Source: a bacterium
Lineage (GTDB): Bacteria > T1Sed10-126
Assembly (NCBI GenBank): GCA_003554945.1
Contig: PWHN01000109.1
Location: 1-12,477 of the forward strand
Direction: 5' to 3'
Length of the DNA stretch: 12,477 bases
A program made the translations under genes and the position numbers. Below are positions 2,696-10,617 of the stretch, one piece after another. Each line of letters starts with the position of its first letter. Within the stretch, counting starts at the first letter, position 1. The notes beneath the pieces were generated by a model. The model saw only the letters and a program-made list of their open reading frames with translations. It was not told the origin of the DNA and did no database searches.

Positions 2696-2723
2696 GTATC
2701 GTACTTTAAGTTTTTAAGTTATT
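2696..2723 (+). repeat. Left terminal inverted repeat (28 bp)
   Basis: Begins GTATCGTAC, continues with two tandem copies of the octamer TTTAAGTT (2705-2712 and 2713-2720) and ends ATT. It is the exact reverse complement of 3617-3644. The tandem octamers could be binding sites for the transposase C-terminal domain. A further GTATC stands just outside at 2687-2691. Confidence 0.9.
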
Positions 2724-2742
2724 GGGGTAGACCACACTTACT

Positions 2743-3621
2743 ATGGGTTATGTAGTCAGAGAATACGTCGAGGGTTACTGGTATCATATTCACACTCGTG
2801 GGCAGCGTGGGGAACCGCTGTTTTTCTCGCCGGAGGACCGCATTCACTATCTCAACCTGCTGGACGATAGACTGGCTCGCCGGGGAGGAAATATAGGTTC
2901 TTTCTGTCTGATGACCAACCACGTTCATTTACTATTACGAATGGGCGAGACACCGCTGGGCGAAATATTGAAAGCTGCGCATTCAAAATATGCCAGGGAT
3001 TTTAATGCCGCTCGGGGCACAGATGGGCACGTAACACAGGGGCGGCCCGGAGTAAAAGTTGTCCTGGATGAGGATTACTTGTGGCACCTGGTTGGATATA
3101 TCCATAGTAATCCCGTGAAAGCGAAAATAGTGAAGGAACCCAGTAACTATCGGTGGAGTTCATGGTTCTGGTTTTTGGGGGAGGAGTGCAATTGGATAGA
3201 GCTTAAGAGCTGGCATTATCCTCCCCAATTTGACGGTGGGGATCGAGCGGAAGTTTTCCGGCGGGCCACTGGCACGAAGAAAAGTGAGTGGCCGGGAGAG
3301 CGAAAGTATATTGGAACAGTAGAGCAGTGGGATGAGTTTGAGTGTCGGCGCCAGGCGGGCAGGGAAGCCCAGGCATACAGGGAACGACGGGGCCGGCGAA
3401 CTAAAAAAGAGATAGCAACTGAAGTTGCAGAAGAGGCGGACCTGGAGGTAGAAGAGCTGCAGGGGCCGAGCCGGGCCCGTAATGTAAGTGGCCCCCGCAG
3501 GGAGGCGATGGCGTTGATGTATGAGGAAGGTTACGGAACCAGTGAGATTGCACGATATTTCAATCGGACGCCGGCTTCTGTGAGTCAAGCGTATAAAAAA
3601 TGGAAAGAAGACGAAGAATAA
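2743..3621 (+). CDS. REP-associated-type tyrosine (Y1/HUH) transposase with DnaA-like C-terminal domain
   Basis: 292-residue transposase of the Y1_Tnp/RAYT type, which nicks and joins single-stranded DNA through a phosphotyrosine intermediate. The N-terminal half (about 1-130) has the expected start EGYWYHIHTRGQRGEPLFF, the metal-binding HUH motif in MTNHVHLLL (H60-x-H62), and the RAYT hallmark YIHSNPVKA (about 119-127), whose Tyr is the likely catalytic residue. The C-terminal region (about 217-288) resembles the DnaA DNA-binding domain: EVEELQGPSRARNVSGPRREA followed by GTSEIARYFNRTPASVSQAYKKW, a helix-turn-helix. Residues 175-220 are basic and linker-like. The ATG at 2743 is the only usable start because TAG occurs in frame at 2728; its ribosome binding site is weak. 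The stop codon lies inside the right terminal repeat. The gene is intact. Confidence 0.9.
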   Translation: MGYVVREYVEGYWYHIHTRGQRGEPLFFSPEDRIHYLNLLDDRLARRGGNIGSFCLMTNHVHLLLRMGETPLGEILKAAHSKYARDFNAARGTDGHVTQGRPGVKVVLDEDYLWHLVGYIHSNPVKAKIVKEPSNYRWSSWFWFLGEECNWIELKSWHYPPQFDGGDRAEVFRRATGTKKSEWPGERKYIGTVEQWDEFECRRQAGREAQAYRERRGRRTKKEIATEVAEEADLEVEELQGPSRARNVSGPRREAMALMYEEGYGTSEIARYFNRTPASVSQAYKKWKEDEE

Positions 3622-3644
3622 CTTAAAAACTTAAAGTACGATAC
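3617..3644 (+). repeat. Right terminal inverted repeat (28 bp)
   Basis: Exact reverse complement of 2696-2723. It contains two AACTTAAA octamers (3620-3635) and ends in GTACGATAC. It supplies the transposase stop codon (TAA, 3619-3621) and ends 22 nt before the apparent start of the flavodoxin-like gene. Confidence 0.9.
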
Positions 3645-3666
3645 GGAGAAGAGAGGTTAGTTCGTT

Positions 3667-4140
3667 ATTAAAACAGCTATTTTTTATATTTCACCGCATC
3701 ATGGTAATACAAGGGAAGTGGCGGAAGTTATGGGGGAGGAGTTGGGGGCGAAAGTGTATGATCTTGCTTCTGTATCTATAGAAGACCCGGGGGAATTTGA
3801 TCTGCTTGGATTTGGTTCGGGAATTTACTACCGGAAGCATCATCGGGCTCTGCTTGATTTTGTTAATGAGCTGCCGGAGATGTCTGACAAAAAAGCTTTT
3901 GTTTTTTCGACCAGTGGTTTTCGAAAGGTGCCGCTGCTCAATCCATTGCACAAGCATTTAAAAGAGAAGTTGAAGGAGAAAAAGGTTGAGTTGCTGGACG
4001 AGTTCAGTTGTCGGGGTTACGATACTTACGGCCCGCTCAAGTTAATCGGCGGGATGTGGGAAAGCCATCCCGACGAGTTGGACCTCGAGCAAGCTAAACA
4101 GTTCGCACAGAAGATCAAAAAACAGATTGAATATTCATGA
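3667..4140 (+). CDS. Flavodoxin-like protein (ATT start)
   Basis: 157-residue flavodoxin-fold protein, predicted to bind FMN and carry electrons in the cytosol. Read from ATT at 3667 it begins MKTAIFYISPHHGNT, the phosphate-binding loop (S-P-H-H-G-N-T) at the usual distance from the N terminus. It continues with DLLGFGSGIYYRKHH (about 52-66) and AFVFSTSGF (about 79-87), the strand-loop segments that contact the flavin ring. The in-frame codon at 3658 is TAG and no ATG, GTG or TTG lies between there and the motif, so ATT (or less likely GTT at 3664) must initiate. The GTG at 3718 would remove the flavin loop. AGAGG at 3652-3656 is a plausible ribosome binding site 10 nt upstream. The transposon ends just before it, so its native promoter or start codon may have been altered. 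The redox partner is unknown. Confidence 0.82.
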   Translation: MKTAIFYISPHHGNTREVAEVMGEELGAKVYDLASVSIEDPGEFDLLGFGSGIYYRKHHRALLDFVNELPEMSDKKAFVFSTSGFRKVPLLNPLHKHLKEKLKEKKVELLDEFSCRGYDTYGPLKLIGGMWESHPDELDLEQAKQFAQKIKKQIEYS

Positions 4141-6417: not shown

Positions 6418-9400
6418 ATGCGTGTCAATCGAGTGACATTTTTTGTATTAGTAATTTTGCTTGTGGTGTTTGTTTTACCGTCAGATCTGTGGGCTTTTCC
6501 GGGTGGAGGCTCGGGAACTGCAGGTGATCCTTATCAAGTTACTAACTGGGAGAAACTACATGCGCTCAGGGATAATCTATCGGCCCACTATATACTGATG
6601 AATGATCTTGGTCCCGGGACAACGGGATACGATGATTATGCCAGTCCGACCGCCGACGGTGGACAGGGCTGGGAGCCAATCGGTGAGGTAATTGATCCGG
6701 ATGCAGGATTATTTGACGGGTTCACCGGAGTTTTTGACGGTGATAATCATACGATTTATTCCCTGTATATTAACCGCCCAGAGGGGATCGGGGTTGGCTT
6801 ATTTGCCGTTACCGAAGAGGATGCGCAGGTCAAAAACGTCGGGCTGGAAGACGTTGATATTACCTCATACATTGGTGTCGGGGGGTTAATTGGAGCGCAC
6901 TTATCAAGTGGTGATGTTACAAACACCTATGTTACCGGTGAGATTTACGGCGTTAGCGGTTCTGAGGCTGTAGGAGGCTTGATTGGTGTTGCCGGAGACG
7001 TTTCGATTGTTTCAAACAGCCACGCCAATCAAATTAGTGTACGTGGCGACTCAGAGGTTGGAGGATTAATTGGAGTTGCCGAAGGAACTCTTACGGATCT
7101 GCATGTCACTGGAGAAGTTCAGGGGGATAAGAGGGTGGGGGGATTAATTGGTGAGTTAGAAGAAGCTTCTTTAGTCAATTCCTATGCAGATGTAACGGTT
7201 GATGGGAGAGAAAACGGCAGAGATATAGGAGGACTTGTCGGGGAGAGTTATCGTAGTAGCATAGATAATAGCCACGCGACAGGAGACGTTTCGGGTAAAA
7301 GTCAAGTTGGAGGACTTGTTGGAAGAAATTATGAAGGAGCTGGAATTACTCAATCATATGCAACCGGTAAGGTAACCGTTTCCTCGAACGACGGAGTTGC
7401 TGCTGGAGGTTTGGTCGGTCAAAATAACGGTCCGGTGATCAATTCATTCGCCCGTGGTAAAGTGACCATGGAAGGACTTCACGGGGGAGGATTGGCGGGA
7501 ATCAATCTTGAGGATGGGTTGATTACTAACTCTTACTCTACCGGTGAAGTTACTGGTGGCGGAAGTTCGCTTGGGGGATTACTTGGAACAGCGGTTGGGG
7601 GGAGTGACGTTAGTAGTAGTTTTTGGGATATTCAAACCTCGGGAAAATCTAACAGCGCTGGAGGAACAGGCCGAACCACAGCGCAGATGAAGGAGTTTGC
7701 CGGGTTTGATAATGCCGGCTGGGAGATCGGTGAAAAACGGGGTTATGAGAATGATGGTTACCCCTACCTGTCCGGCAGCACACCAACCTGGTTAATCGCT
7801 GAATATACTGAGATTTCTTTGAAGACTACGGAAGAGAACAATATTTCCCTGTCTGTCTCGGTGGTTTCGATGGATTCCGCGCCCATTTCCTGGGTCTTTT
7901 ACAACGCCGCCGAATCGGATTCCGTTACCTACAGGGATGTTAATTTTGTTTCACATGACTTCGAGGGAGAGCCAGATACTAAAACTTTCATTGTTATGGT
8001 CCCGGATACCGGTGCGATAAATTCTATAGTCTGGACGAGCAAAAAATTAGCCGGAGAAATTCCGGCCGAATTTGGCGAGTTGACGGAGTTGACGACACTC
8101 AATCTGTTGAGAAATAATTTCAGCGGATCTATACCGGCAGAGCTGGGAAACCTGACAAAGTTGGAACGGCTCAGCCTTCTGGAAAACAGCCTCAGCGGTG
8201 AAATCCCGTCGGAACTCGGGAATCTTACTAAGCTGACTCGCCTGGCGGTGTATGAGAATGATGATCTCACTGGATCGCTACCGGAGAGCCTGGGAAATCT
8301 GAGCGAGCTGGAAAGCTTTAATTTTTCTTCAACTGGAATTACGGGTGATATTCCCGCTTCATTCAGCAATTTAACCAAGCTTGAATACTTTAACGGGAAT
8401 GCGACGCATATCAGCGGTTATGAACCAGGTGTATTTGCCACCCAGCCAAACCTCGAGAGTATATGGCTGACCTCTGGTGGGCCTCTGACTCCTTTATCGA
8501 GGGAAGCAATTGACAATATATTAACCGACCTCGTGACCAGCCTGGATCTTCCGAATAGAGTTATAGCGACGGTCGGACTACAGAATAATGAGCCCGGAGG
8601 TGTAGCAGCACGCCAGGCCTATGAGACCCTTTTGGATGCCGGCTGGTCAGTTAATGTGGAACTTGCCGAGCATACGGTTACCACAAGAATCAACGGGAAA
8701 GGTAGGGTTATTCTCGACGGGGTTACGGAACTGACCGACGGTGATGTTCAGACCATACTCGTGGGGGATACGCTTCATCTGGAGGCCGTCCCCGATGATT
8801 TCTGGTATTTTGCAGGTTGGGATACCGACCTCAGCGCCACCGACCCGCAGGCAAGTCTTTTTGTCGACGAGGACAAGGAGATCGGTGCCAATTTCGAGGC
8901 GTTTGACACCAGTATCATTGACGTGACCGTGAGCGGTGAGGGCACCGTCTACATAAACGGCGACACGGCCCTGGGGCCGACAACGGTGCTGACCGACGAC
9001 ACGGTTACGATCACTGCCGAACCCAAATTCACCTGGTATTTTGACACCTGGGGCGGCGACCTGAGCGGGTCCGATACCACGGTTGAACTGTTCGTTGATG
9101 CGGATAAATCAATCACGGCTACGTTCACCGAACATACCACTCATGAACTTACCGTTGATATTTTTGGCGAGGGTGATGTTTATGTAGGTGACGGTCAGGT
9201 CTCCGAAAAAGTTGTCGGGGACACCGTCAATGTGATTGCCGGTGATACGGCCTATATCGAGGCGTTGCCAGCGCAATACTGGTTCTTGAAAGAATGGGGA
9301 GGAGCTGTATCGGGAGCCGAGCTTCAAGTGAAGCTGTTCGTTGATTCGGACACTACGATTAGTGCTACCTTTGAGCGTATCGTTCATACGACAACCTTCA

Positions 9401-10617
9401 CTGTTATTGGAGACGGCCAAATAGAAATTGAGGGCGATACTCTGGTTGTAGACGGGGATACATTTAGCTCTACTGCCGGTGAAACAATCGCCCTGGAGGC
9501 AAAACCTGGCGACCACTCCTACTTTGTTGAGTGGTCGTTTGACCTGGGCAGTGATACAGCGGTGGATCTGTTTGTAAACGCTGATCTGTTTATAACGGCA
9601 ACTTTTGACACTTTCGGTATCACAAACATCAACAGACCGTTTCCCGGGGCACTCGTGGGCGATACGTTGACGATCAATTTTGATTACTACGGTCGCGCTG
9701 GAGATACACTGCAACTGGTTAAGAATGGAACCACTGTCCTGGGAACGGCTCCCGCAGAAGCCGGCGAACAAAACGCCGAACATAGTTTCCCAGAAGCATT
9801 TGGAACAGCGGGCCCCGCCACTCTAAGTTTTCAGTATTTAACCCATGGTGATCTTCTGCTCGATTCAAAGGAAGTCACCGTGAATGTCAGACTTACCGAA
9901 CTTCACGAGGTAGATTCGGACAGCATGAGTTTCAAGGCGGGGCGGTTTCAGCTCCAATTCCCGGATACTACCGCTGTGACTGTGGATCTTAATCCACTGC
10001 TTGGGCCGAATGAATCAAAGATTAATAGCGCTAATACCAAAGCAGCCGGTCGGTATGTTGAAAACCAGATTGAAAGCACCATTTTTGAGGTAAAATCAGC
10101 AGCTCTAACTGATGCCGGCGGGACAATCACCATTAGCTATTCTGAGGTTGCTGCAAAGCTATCAGGACATGAGGAAAATCTTCGGATCTACCGTCTGGAT
10201 ATGCAAGAAGAAGAATGGTCGGATGCCGAAATAACTCATATAGACGTGGATACGGATGTGCACAGAGTTCGAGCCAATGTCCAGGAGTTCTCTATTTTTG
10301 CTGTTCTGAGTTCAGCTTCTGTCTCTACTGTGGCTGACGATCTTGGAGAAGTTTACTCGTGGCCAAATCCTTACCTTGGACCTGACCACGCCGAGATATT
10401 TTTTGCTATCCCAGATAGCTATGGAAACCGGGGTACTCTGGAGATCTATAATATCCGCGGCCATCGCGTCTATTCAAGAAGCTGGACTGACGCCGATATA
10501 GTTGATGGCGCAAACAACGCTATTCGCTGGGTTCCTCGGGTGGCCAGCGGGACCTATATTTATGTTCTAAGCGGTGGCGGACAAACTTCAAGCGAAACGC
10601 TAACGATTATTCGATAA
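6418..10617 (+). CDS. Large secreted GLUG / LRR / InlB-B-repeat surface protein
   Basis: 1399-residue exported protein, probably an adhesin or glycan-binding surface protein. Signal peptide 1-26 (hydrophobic core, then LWA-FPGG). Residues about 95-150 (GVFDGDNHTIYSLYI) lead into nine GLUG units whose GGL[IVLA]G cores start at 155, 186, 215, 241, 271, 298, 330, 357 and 386. Residues about 541-680 are leucine-rich repeats of the plant-type L-x-G-x-I-P pattern, followed by the cap-like segment often seen after bacterial LRRs (about 690-750, ending LLDAGWSVNVE). Four InlB-B-like repeats follow (about 751-830, 831-907, 908-990 and 991-1066), each with a W/Y-F-x-x-W core and ending -A-x-F. Residues about 1070-1300 are beta-rich. 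The C terminus (about 1310-1399; WPNPY, LEIYNIRGHRVYSR, ASGTYIYVL) resembles FlgD-Ig/Por-type sorting domains. AGGAGG lies 8 nt before the ATG. No enzyme motif is seen. Confidence 0.9.
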   Translation: MRVNRVTFFVLVILLVVFVLPSDLWAFPGGGSGTAGDPYQVTNWEKLHALRDNLSAHYILMNDLGPGTTGYDDYASPTADGGQGWEPIGEVIDPDAGLFDGFTGVFDGDNHTIYSLYINRPEGIGVGLFAVTEEDAQVKNVGLEDVDITSYIGVGGLIGAHLSSGDVTNTYVTGEIYGVSGSEAVGGLIGVAGDVSIVSNSHANQISVRGDSEVGGLIGVAEGTLTDLHVTGEVQGDKRVGGLIGELEEASLVNSYADVTVDGRENGRDIGGLVGESYRSSIDNSHATGDVSGKSQVGGLVGRNYEGAGITQSYATGKVTVSSNDGVAAGGLVGQNNGPVINSFARGKVTMEGLHGGGLAGINLEDGLITNSYSTGEVTGGGSSLGGLLGTAVGGSDVSSSFWDIQTSGKSNSAGGTGRTTAQMKEFAGFDNAGWEIGEKRGYENDGYPYLSGSTPTWLIAEYTEISLKTTEENNISLSVSVVSMDSAPISWVFYNAAESDSVTYRDVNFVSHDFEGEPDTKTFIVMVPDTGAINSIVWTSKKLAGEIPAEFGELTELTTLNLLRNNFSGSIPAELGNLTKLERLSLLENSLSGEIPSELGNLTKLTRLAVYENDDLTGSLPESLGNLSELESFNFSSTGITGDIPASFSNLTKLEYFNGNATHISGYEPGVFATQPNLESIWLTSGGPLTPLSREAIDNILTDLVTSLDLPNRVIATVGLQNNEPGGVAARQAYETLLDAGWSVNVELAEHTVTTRINGKGRVILDGVTELTDGDVQTILVGDTLHLEAVPDDFWYFAGWDTDLSATDPQASLFVDEDKEIGANFEAFDTSIIDVTVSGEGTVYINGDTALGPTTVLTDDTVTITAEPKFTWYFDTWGGDLSGSDTTVELFVDADKSITATFTEHTTHELTVDIFGEGDVYVGDGQVSEKVVGDTVNVIAGDTAYIEALPAQYWFLKEWGGAVSGAELQVKLFVDSDTTISATFERIVHTTTFTVIGDGQIEIEGDTLVVDGDTFSSTAGETIALEAKPGDHSYFVEWSFDLGSDTAVDLFVNADLFITATFDTFGITNINRPFPGALVGDTLTINFDYYGRAGDTLQLVKNGTTVLGTAPAEAGEQNAEHSFPEAFGTAGPATLSFQYLTHGDLLLDSKEVTVNVRLTELHEVDSDSMSFKAGRFQLQFPDTTAVTVDLNPLLGPNESKINSANTKAAGRYVENQIESTIFEVKSAALTDAGGTITISYSEVAAKLSGHEENLRIYRLDMQEEEWSDAEITHIDVDTDVHRVRANVQEFSIFAVLSSASVSTVADDLGEVYSWPNPYLGPDHAEIFFAIPDSYGNRGTLEIYNIRGHRVYSRSWTDADIVDGANNAIRWVPRVASGTYIYVLSGGGQTSSETLTIIR
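6874..7629 (+). repeat. Array of nine GLUG-type coding repeats
   Basis: The encoded protein repeats GGL[IVLA]G every 26-32 residues, each followed by a segment of the N-S-[YHF]-[AS]-x-G-x-V type. This matches the GLUG motif found in surface and secreted proteins with a beta-helix-like fold. The DNA repeats have diverged too far to be recent duplications. Confidence 0.85.
8038..8457 (+). repeat. Leucine-rich repeats (plant-type I-P pattern)
   Basis: About five repeats of roughly 24 residues, for example the unit GEIPSELGNLTKLTRLAVYE. The conserved I-P and L-G-N-L positions are those of plant-type LRRs, here in a bacterial surface protein. The fold would be a curved ligand-binding solenoid. 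Confidence 0.85.
8668..9615 (+). repeat. Four InlB-B-like coding repeats
   Basis: Four modules of 76-83 residues, each with G-x-G-x-[VI], a G-[DE]-T or D-D-T turn, A-x-P, a W/Y-F-x-x-W core, V/L-F-V-[DN]-x-D and a closing A-x-F. This is the pattern of the divergent InlB B-repeat (small beta-grasp-like) domain, often a stalk or spacer in surface proteins. Confidence 0.8.

Follow-up and report, generated by a model that had tools for sequence, protein, structure and literature searches.

RAYT-like genes that are flanked by terminal inverted repeats (TIRs) in place of REPs were named TIRYTs, and the corresponding units TIRtrons, by Di Nocera et al. (2013; PMC3733652). A GGGGWSAS motif is common to some of the TIRs described there and others are without it, so that it is an optional feature. 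Quentin et al. (2018; PMC6006769) found that 20 of the 26 TIRYTs of Di Nocera et al. fall in TnpA_Y1 subclass 2.1, and in its subgroup 2.1.2 a DnaA_C/HTH extension is present and REPs were not found. They doubted that the HTH recognizes the TIRs because GGGGWSAS does not resemble a DnaA box, and the link of subclass 2.1.2 to TIRYTs still awaited confirmation in their study (PMC6006769). For classical RAYTs, the literature reports no evidence of tnpA_REP mobility (PMC8266576), and a demonstration that any TIRYT binds or cuts its own TIR was absent from the literature found. Recognition of the TIR, the role of the DnaA-like tail and movement of the unit have been questions on TIRYTs since 2013.

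Here, a bacterial contig of 12,477 nucleotides, referred to as the window (PWHN01000109.1, assembly GCA_003554945.1), was analyzed. The locus at 2696-3644 is a TIRtron, i.e., a Y1/HUH transposase (TIRYT) between cognate TIRs, a kind that is already named and little studied. A sequence-only reading had suggested that a distinct autonomous RAYT transposon may lie at this position. A TIR-bounded Y1 unit was indeed found, with signs of movement in relatives, but it is not a new type of transposon, since TIR-flanked Y1 transposases have been described since 2013.

Repeats bounding the unit

The left TIR (2696-2723, + strand) and the right TIR (3617-3644, - strand) are complementary at 28 of 28 positions and 893 nt apart, and the unit measures 949 bp from TIR to TIR. 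The right TIR is the exact reverse complement of the left, so that both arms read GTATCGTAC-TTTAAGTT-TTTAAGTT-ATT from outside to inside. In the left arm, the head GTATCGTAC (2696-2704) is followed by two TTTAAGTT units (2705-2712 and 2713-2720) and ATT; the complement of this tandem octamer (2705-2720) lies at 3620-3635. The pair flanking the transposase is the longest exact inverted repeat anywhere in the window (28 nt), whereas the longest exact one in 20 block-shuffled windows was 14 nt. The next-ranking inverted repeats in the window are 16-27 nt long with 73-94% complementarity.

In the host genome, two further copies of the window TIR were found, the first identical to it and the second differing at one position. 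In all four genomic copies the likeness spans the same 28 bp and divergence begins directly outside. Therefore, the ends of the unit are fixed at the TIR. The 28-bp inverted repeats, the tandem octamers in both ends and the placement of the ends given by the sequence-only reading are all borne out, and the repeat copies did not locate the true ends elsewhere. No GTAG motif is present in the 28-bp window TIR, and its strands do not fold into hairpins better than shuffled sequences. As the sequence-only reading had held, the unit thus belongs neither to the REPtrons with GTAG REPs nor to the IS200/IS605 elements with hairpin ends.

Several features were observed around the unit. A small ORF at 2587-2688 (MTNKITEEDLSDEWYSQKISIVKDELRTDEEGL) stops some 8 bp short of the left TIR. 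On the right, a flavodoxin-like gene contains an in-frame TAG at 3658-3660 (window 3644-3672) and has its full N-terminus IKTAIFYISPHHGNTREVAE only from an ATT start at 3667; a Shine-Dalgarno-like GGAGAAGAGAGG begins directly at the right TIR edge. Positions 6418-10617 encode a protein of 1399 aa that combines GLUG motifs and leucine-rich repeats with InlB-type B repeats and the C-terminus of which, by eye only, resembles a type IX secretion sorting domain.

Domains of the transposase

The transposase gene between the TIRs (2743-3621, + strand) encodes 292 aa, and its stop codon lies inside the right TIR. The HUH/Y1 catalytic core (2770-3111, + strand) is supported by a Pfam match (residues 10-89), the alignment of homologs and a structure match. 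The Pfam Y1_Tnp match is at the cut-off (23.0 bits), and with the NCBIfam equivalog REP_Tyr_transpos the protein scored 52 bits, under the cut-off of 80. H60 (codon 2920-2922), H62 (2926-2928) and Y119 (3097-3099) are invariant in 12 aligned homologs, and Y119 is presumed to be the catalytic tyrosine. A DnaA domain-IV-like helix-turn-helix (HTH; residues 223-286, 3409-3600, + strand) was identified by a structure match and by a C-terminal Bac_DnaA_C match above the cut-off (36.7 vs 31.5 bits).

An AlphaFold model of the protein was obtained with a mean pLDDT of 77. The closest structure to its N-terminal part (residues 1-179) is 4er8, a transposase associated with REPs (Z 13.3, rmsd 2.9 Å over 147 residues). 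Its C-terminal part can be laid nearly exactly over domain IV of DnaA in the complex with its box (1j1v; Z 13.6, rmsd 1.1 Å over 74 residues). Based on this C-terminal HTH, the protein is a probable member of TnpA_Y1 subclass 2.1.2. The DnaA-like HTH is presumed to read the tandem units of the TIR.

Two-part TIRs of homologs

Homologous transposases lacking the repeats, which the sequence-only reading had named as evidence against itself, were the exception: TIRs were found at 93 of 103 homologous loci from many phyla. Set 1 comprised 60 distinct loci, 58 of which had a TIR score of at least 14, against a maximum of 13 in 186 shuffles. This score was also reached at 35 of 43 loci in set 2, which comprised other genomes. 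The units of the homologs are mostly 0.9-1.1 kb long.

The outer heads of most of these TIRs are GGGGTCAG-like and correspond to the published GGGGWSAS. In proteins of HTH length, the inner part frequently consists of two units of 7-9 bp in tandem, which differ from gene to gene, e.g., ATTGACTT-ATTGACTT, ATTGCAAG-ATTGCAAG and TTGACAT-TTGACAT. Tandem periodicity (p < 0.05) was detected in 31 of 52 TIRs of HTH-length proteins (combined Fisher 2e-34) and in none of the TIRs of six short proteins without HTH (Fisher p 0.007 between the two groups). Periodicity was weaker in set 2, being clear in 7 of 34 TIRs (combined p 1e-4). This bipartite TIR, with an outer head and an often gene-private tandem pair, goes beyond the literature found; neither tandem 7-9-bp units nor TIR-to-TIR relocation is mentioned in the searched text of PMC3733652. 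Some heads, such as CCTCGGAGG and GTGTCAGACAC, look palindromic, but a mini-hairpin was rejected as a general feature since the stem length of 47 distinct heads was at chance (2.36 vs 2.28).

Co-variation of the TIR parts with the protein domains was analyzed by partial Mantel tests on 58 TIR/protein pairs, with the same outcome for four choices of domain boundaries. When the core was controlled for, the tandem part co-varied with the HTH (r 0.13-0.16, p ≤ 0.005); its correlation with the core, controlled for the HTH, was not significant. The head showed the opposite pattern: it co-varied with the core when the HTH was controlled for (r about 0.30, p 0.002), and its correlation with the HTH, controlled for the core, was not significant. 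These correlations are small and were computed without correction for shared ancestry, and in set 1 alone the co-variation of tandem part and HTH depends on the domain boundaries. They are suggestive of an HTH that would read the tandem units and an HUH core that would read the head.

TIRtrons and dispersed TIRs in the host genome

The draft genome of the host (2.2 Mb, 121 contigs) encodes six TIRtron proteins, that of the window and five others, which share between 58% and 24% of their residues with it. Each of the six paralogs has its own flanking TIR: GTATCGTACTTTAAGTTTTTAAGTTATT for T1 (the window unit), CCTCGTACTTTGAATTATTTACTTA for T2, TTACCTCGGAGGTTGAAAGTTTGAAA for T3, GGCCTCGGAGGTAAAGTTGTT for T4, AGTGTCAGAGTTAAACTTTAAACTT for T5 and GGGACGGAGGTGTCGATTGTC for T6. 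The tandem units are weak or absent in T2, T4 and T6. Away from the genes, dispersed copies of the cognate TIRs were found for all six (two for T1, seven each for T2, T3 and T6, and nine each for T4 and T5), about 41 in total, including the two T1 copies described above. When the copies of T1-T4 and T6 were mapped against ORFs of at least 90 aa, 27 of 30 were located outside them.

The dispersed copies are mostly lone or head-to-tail TIRs. The sole MITE-like inverted pair is a T4 pair of about 80 bp (C57:2588-2667). T5 copies are mainly head-to-tail direct pairs, 28-49 bp from start to start, at L083, L086, L088, L092 and L094 (contigs C1, C58, C94, C100 and C120). Such T5 direct pairs also flank their own transposase gene on both sides, and some partial T5 copies contain one AAACTT unit, not two.

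Denser arrangements were also observed. Contig C4 (7.7 kb; L037, L052 and L054) carries small toxin-antitoxin-like ORFs and dense T2, T3, T5-like and T6 repeats. On contigs C103 and C110 (L104, L105 and L106), a repeat of ~110 bp consists of a T6 start and a shared non-coding tail and adjoins T2 or T1 copies, resulting in mosaic repeat clusters. At locus L077 of a sister genus (2435-2465), a T4-type repeat forms a perfect long palindrome, AACAACTTTACCTCGGAGGTAAAGTTGTT, of which the host genome keeps one half only. It is possible that this palindrome links hairpin REPs with the non-palindromic TIRs.

Homology from TIR to TIR

Closely related units were compared together with their flanks. The proteins of L143 and L145, two loci of one genome, are 76% identical, and the DNA homology (421-1436 vs 1457-2462) extends from TIR to TIR plus one base, while the flanks are unmatched. 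One unit has GGGTCAG as the head of its two TIRs and the other has GAGCTCAG; heads agree within a unit and differ between units, so both ends changed together. Between L152 and L153, from the same genus (83% nucleotide identity), the homology is bounded by the TIRs and the neighbors are unrelated. The same holds for L008 and its sister-genus ortholog L077 (77% protein identity), which carry a T4-type repeat with a common CCTCGGAGGTAAAGTTGTT core. The flanks of L152, L153 and L077 are visible in part, as these loci lie close to the ends of their contigs. Over all aligned pairs, homology continued outside the TIRs for over 20 bp in 5 of 92 (left) and 2 of 92 (right). Pairs with 60-65% identity prove little because non-coding flanks diverge fast, and it is the closer pairs that carry the argument for relocation. 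Since related units match from TIR to TIR while their flanks do not, whole units appear, from these comparisons, to have been relocated in some lineages, which goes beyond the literature found.

Over 80 units, neither a target duplication nor a consensus in the flanks was detected; for HUH enzymes, the lack of a target duplication is expected. The empty site proposed as a check by the sequence-only reading was not found for the window unit: G001, the only genome of the same family, has unrelated genes after the ortholog of the S58 peptidase. Therefore, insertion is inferred from the comparison of copies. Among viral contigs, no relative was found. The window unit is single-copy in the host draft genome, as is each paralog in its own genome apart from one 76%-identical pair. 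This pattern resembles that of a domesticated RAYT rather than that of an active IS; draft assemblies could have collapsed identical copies. With this copy number, the lack of an empty site and dispersed TIRs that are mostly lone or head-to-tail, the window copy is at most a candidate for an active autonomous element.

Discussion

The domains, the TIR anatomy, the dispersed copies, the TIR-to-TIR homology in unrelated contexts and the lack of target duplication, all observed computationally, are probably best explained by a TIRtron of which the enzyme acts on its own TIR, disperses TIRs and occasionally moves the whole unit. In the proposed mechanism, the C-terminal DnaA-like HTH would recognize its own TIR by the 7-9-bp units in tandem, and an HUH dimer would engage the outer head and nick there via a 5'-phosphotyrosine. 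The enzyme would then copy or move single TIRs into intergenic sites and, occasionally, move the whole TIR-to-TIR unit, and a target duplication would not be made. For the window protein, binding and cutting of its own TIR, this sharing of tasks by the two domains and activity at the present day are all putative.

Alternatively, the locus could be domesticated and non-mobile like a RAYT, with an enzyme that only disperses TIRs and a gene that spreads by horizontal transfer and ordinary recombination. One gene copy per TIR type, within-genome identities of at most 62% apart from the single 76% pair, dispersed copies that are mostly gene-less TIRs, and the absence of reported mobility for classical tnpA_REP (PMC8266576) all fit this explanation. 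However, transfer with random breakpoints would bring flanks along, whereas L143/L145 in one genome and L152/L153 in one genus share exactly the DNA from TIR to TIR in unrelated contexts; a non-mobile locus is considered rather unlikely.

The TIRs could also be operators, and not transposon ends, through which the HTH regulates its own gene, the dispersed copies being a regulon. A downstream TIR that overlaps the end of the gene is a poor place for an operator, the homology of relocated units stops at the TIRs, and the head co-varies with the nuclease core; even with the DnaA-like fold, the co-variation of tandem units with the HTH and the mostly intergenic position of the mapped copies beside genes, this explanation is very improbable. 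That the unit is an ordinary IS200/IS605 element of which the ends were misread is scarcely credible: its Y1 core is akin to the IS608 and ISDra2 transposases, but the closest structure is the REP-associated enzyme 4er8, the TIRs do not form hairpins beyond shuffles, the inverted ends are perfect, the HTH domain is extra, and the dispersed copies place the ends at the TIR.

It can tentatively be proposed, as a possibility still short of probable, that TIRtrons form a mobile branch of their own among the Y1 elements, with bipartite ends, in which the HUH core would read the head and the HTH the gene-private tandem pair, and of which non-cross-reacting units would coexist in one genome and spread both as whole transposons and as lone TIRs. 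If true, private tandem boxes would let many such units coexist in one genome. Six private TIR sets in one genome, together with the two-part ends, offer a direct test bed for TIR recognition.

Compared with known systems, the unit shares with IS200/IS605 elements (IS608, ISDra2) the Y1 catalytic core and the lack of a detected target duplication, but it has true inverted ends, whereas IS200/IS605 elements have subterminal hairpins on one strand. It resembles RAYTs/REPtrons (Nunvar 2010, PMC2817692; Corneloup 2021, PMC8266576) in the HUH core, in a single-copy gene with inverted repeats on its two sides and in cognate repeats that are scattered through intergenic DNA; it differs in repeats that are neither palindromic hairpins nor GTAG-bearing, in the added HTH and in the evidence for relocation of whole units. 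The likeness to TIRYTs/TIRtrons comprises a RAYT-related Y1 gene with long flanking TIRs unrelated to GTAG REPs, several units per genome with TIRs differing between units, and moderate families of dispersed TIRs that are single, dimeric or grouped. GGGGWSAS-like heads are likewise shared by most homologs, whereas the head of the window TIR, GTATCGTAC, is without GGGGWSAS, unlike those of GGGGWSAS-type TIRYTs. Finally, the long protein, the C-terminal Bac_DnaA_C/HTH_23-type extension and the lack of a GTAG REP nearby correspond to subclass 2.1.2, and the TIRs at 93 of 103 loci go beyond what Quentin et al. described for this subclass.
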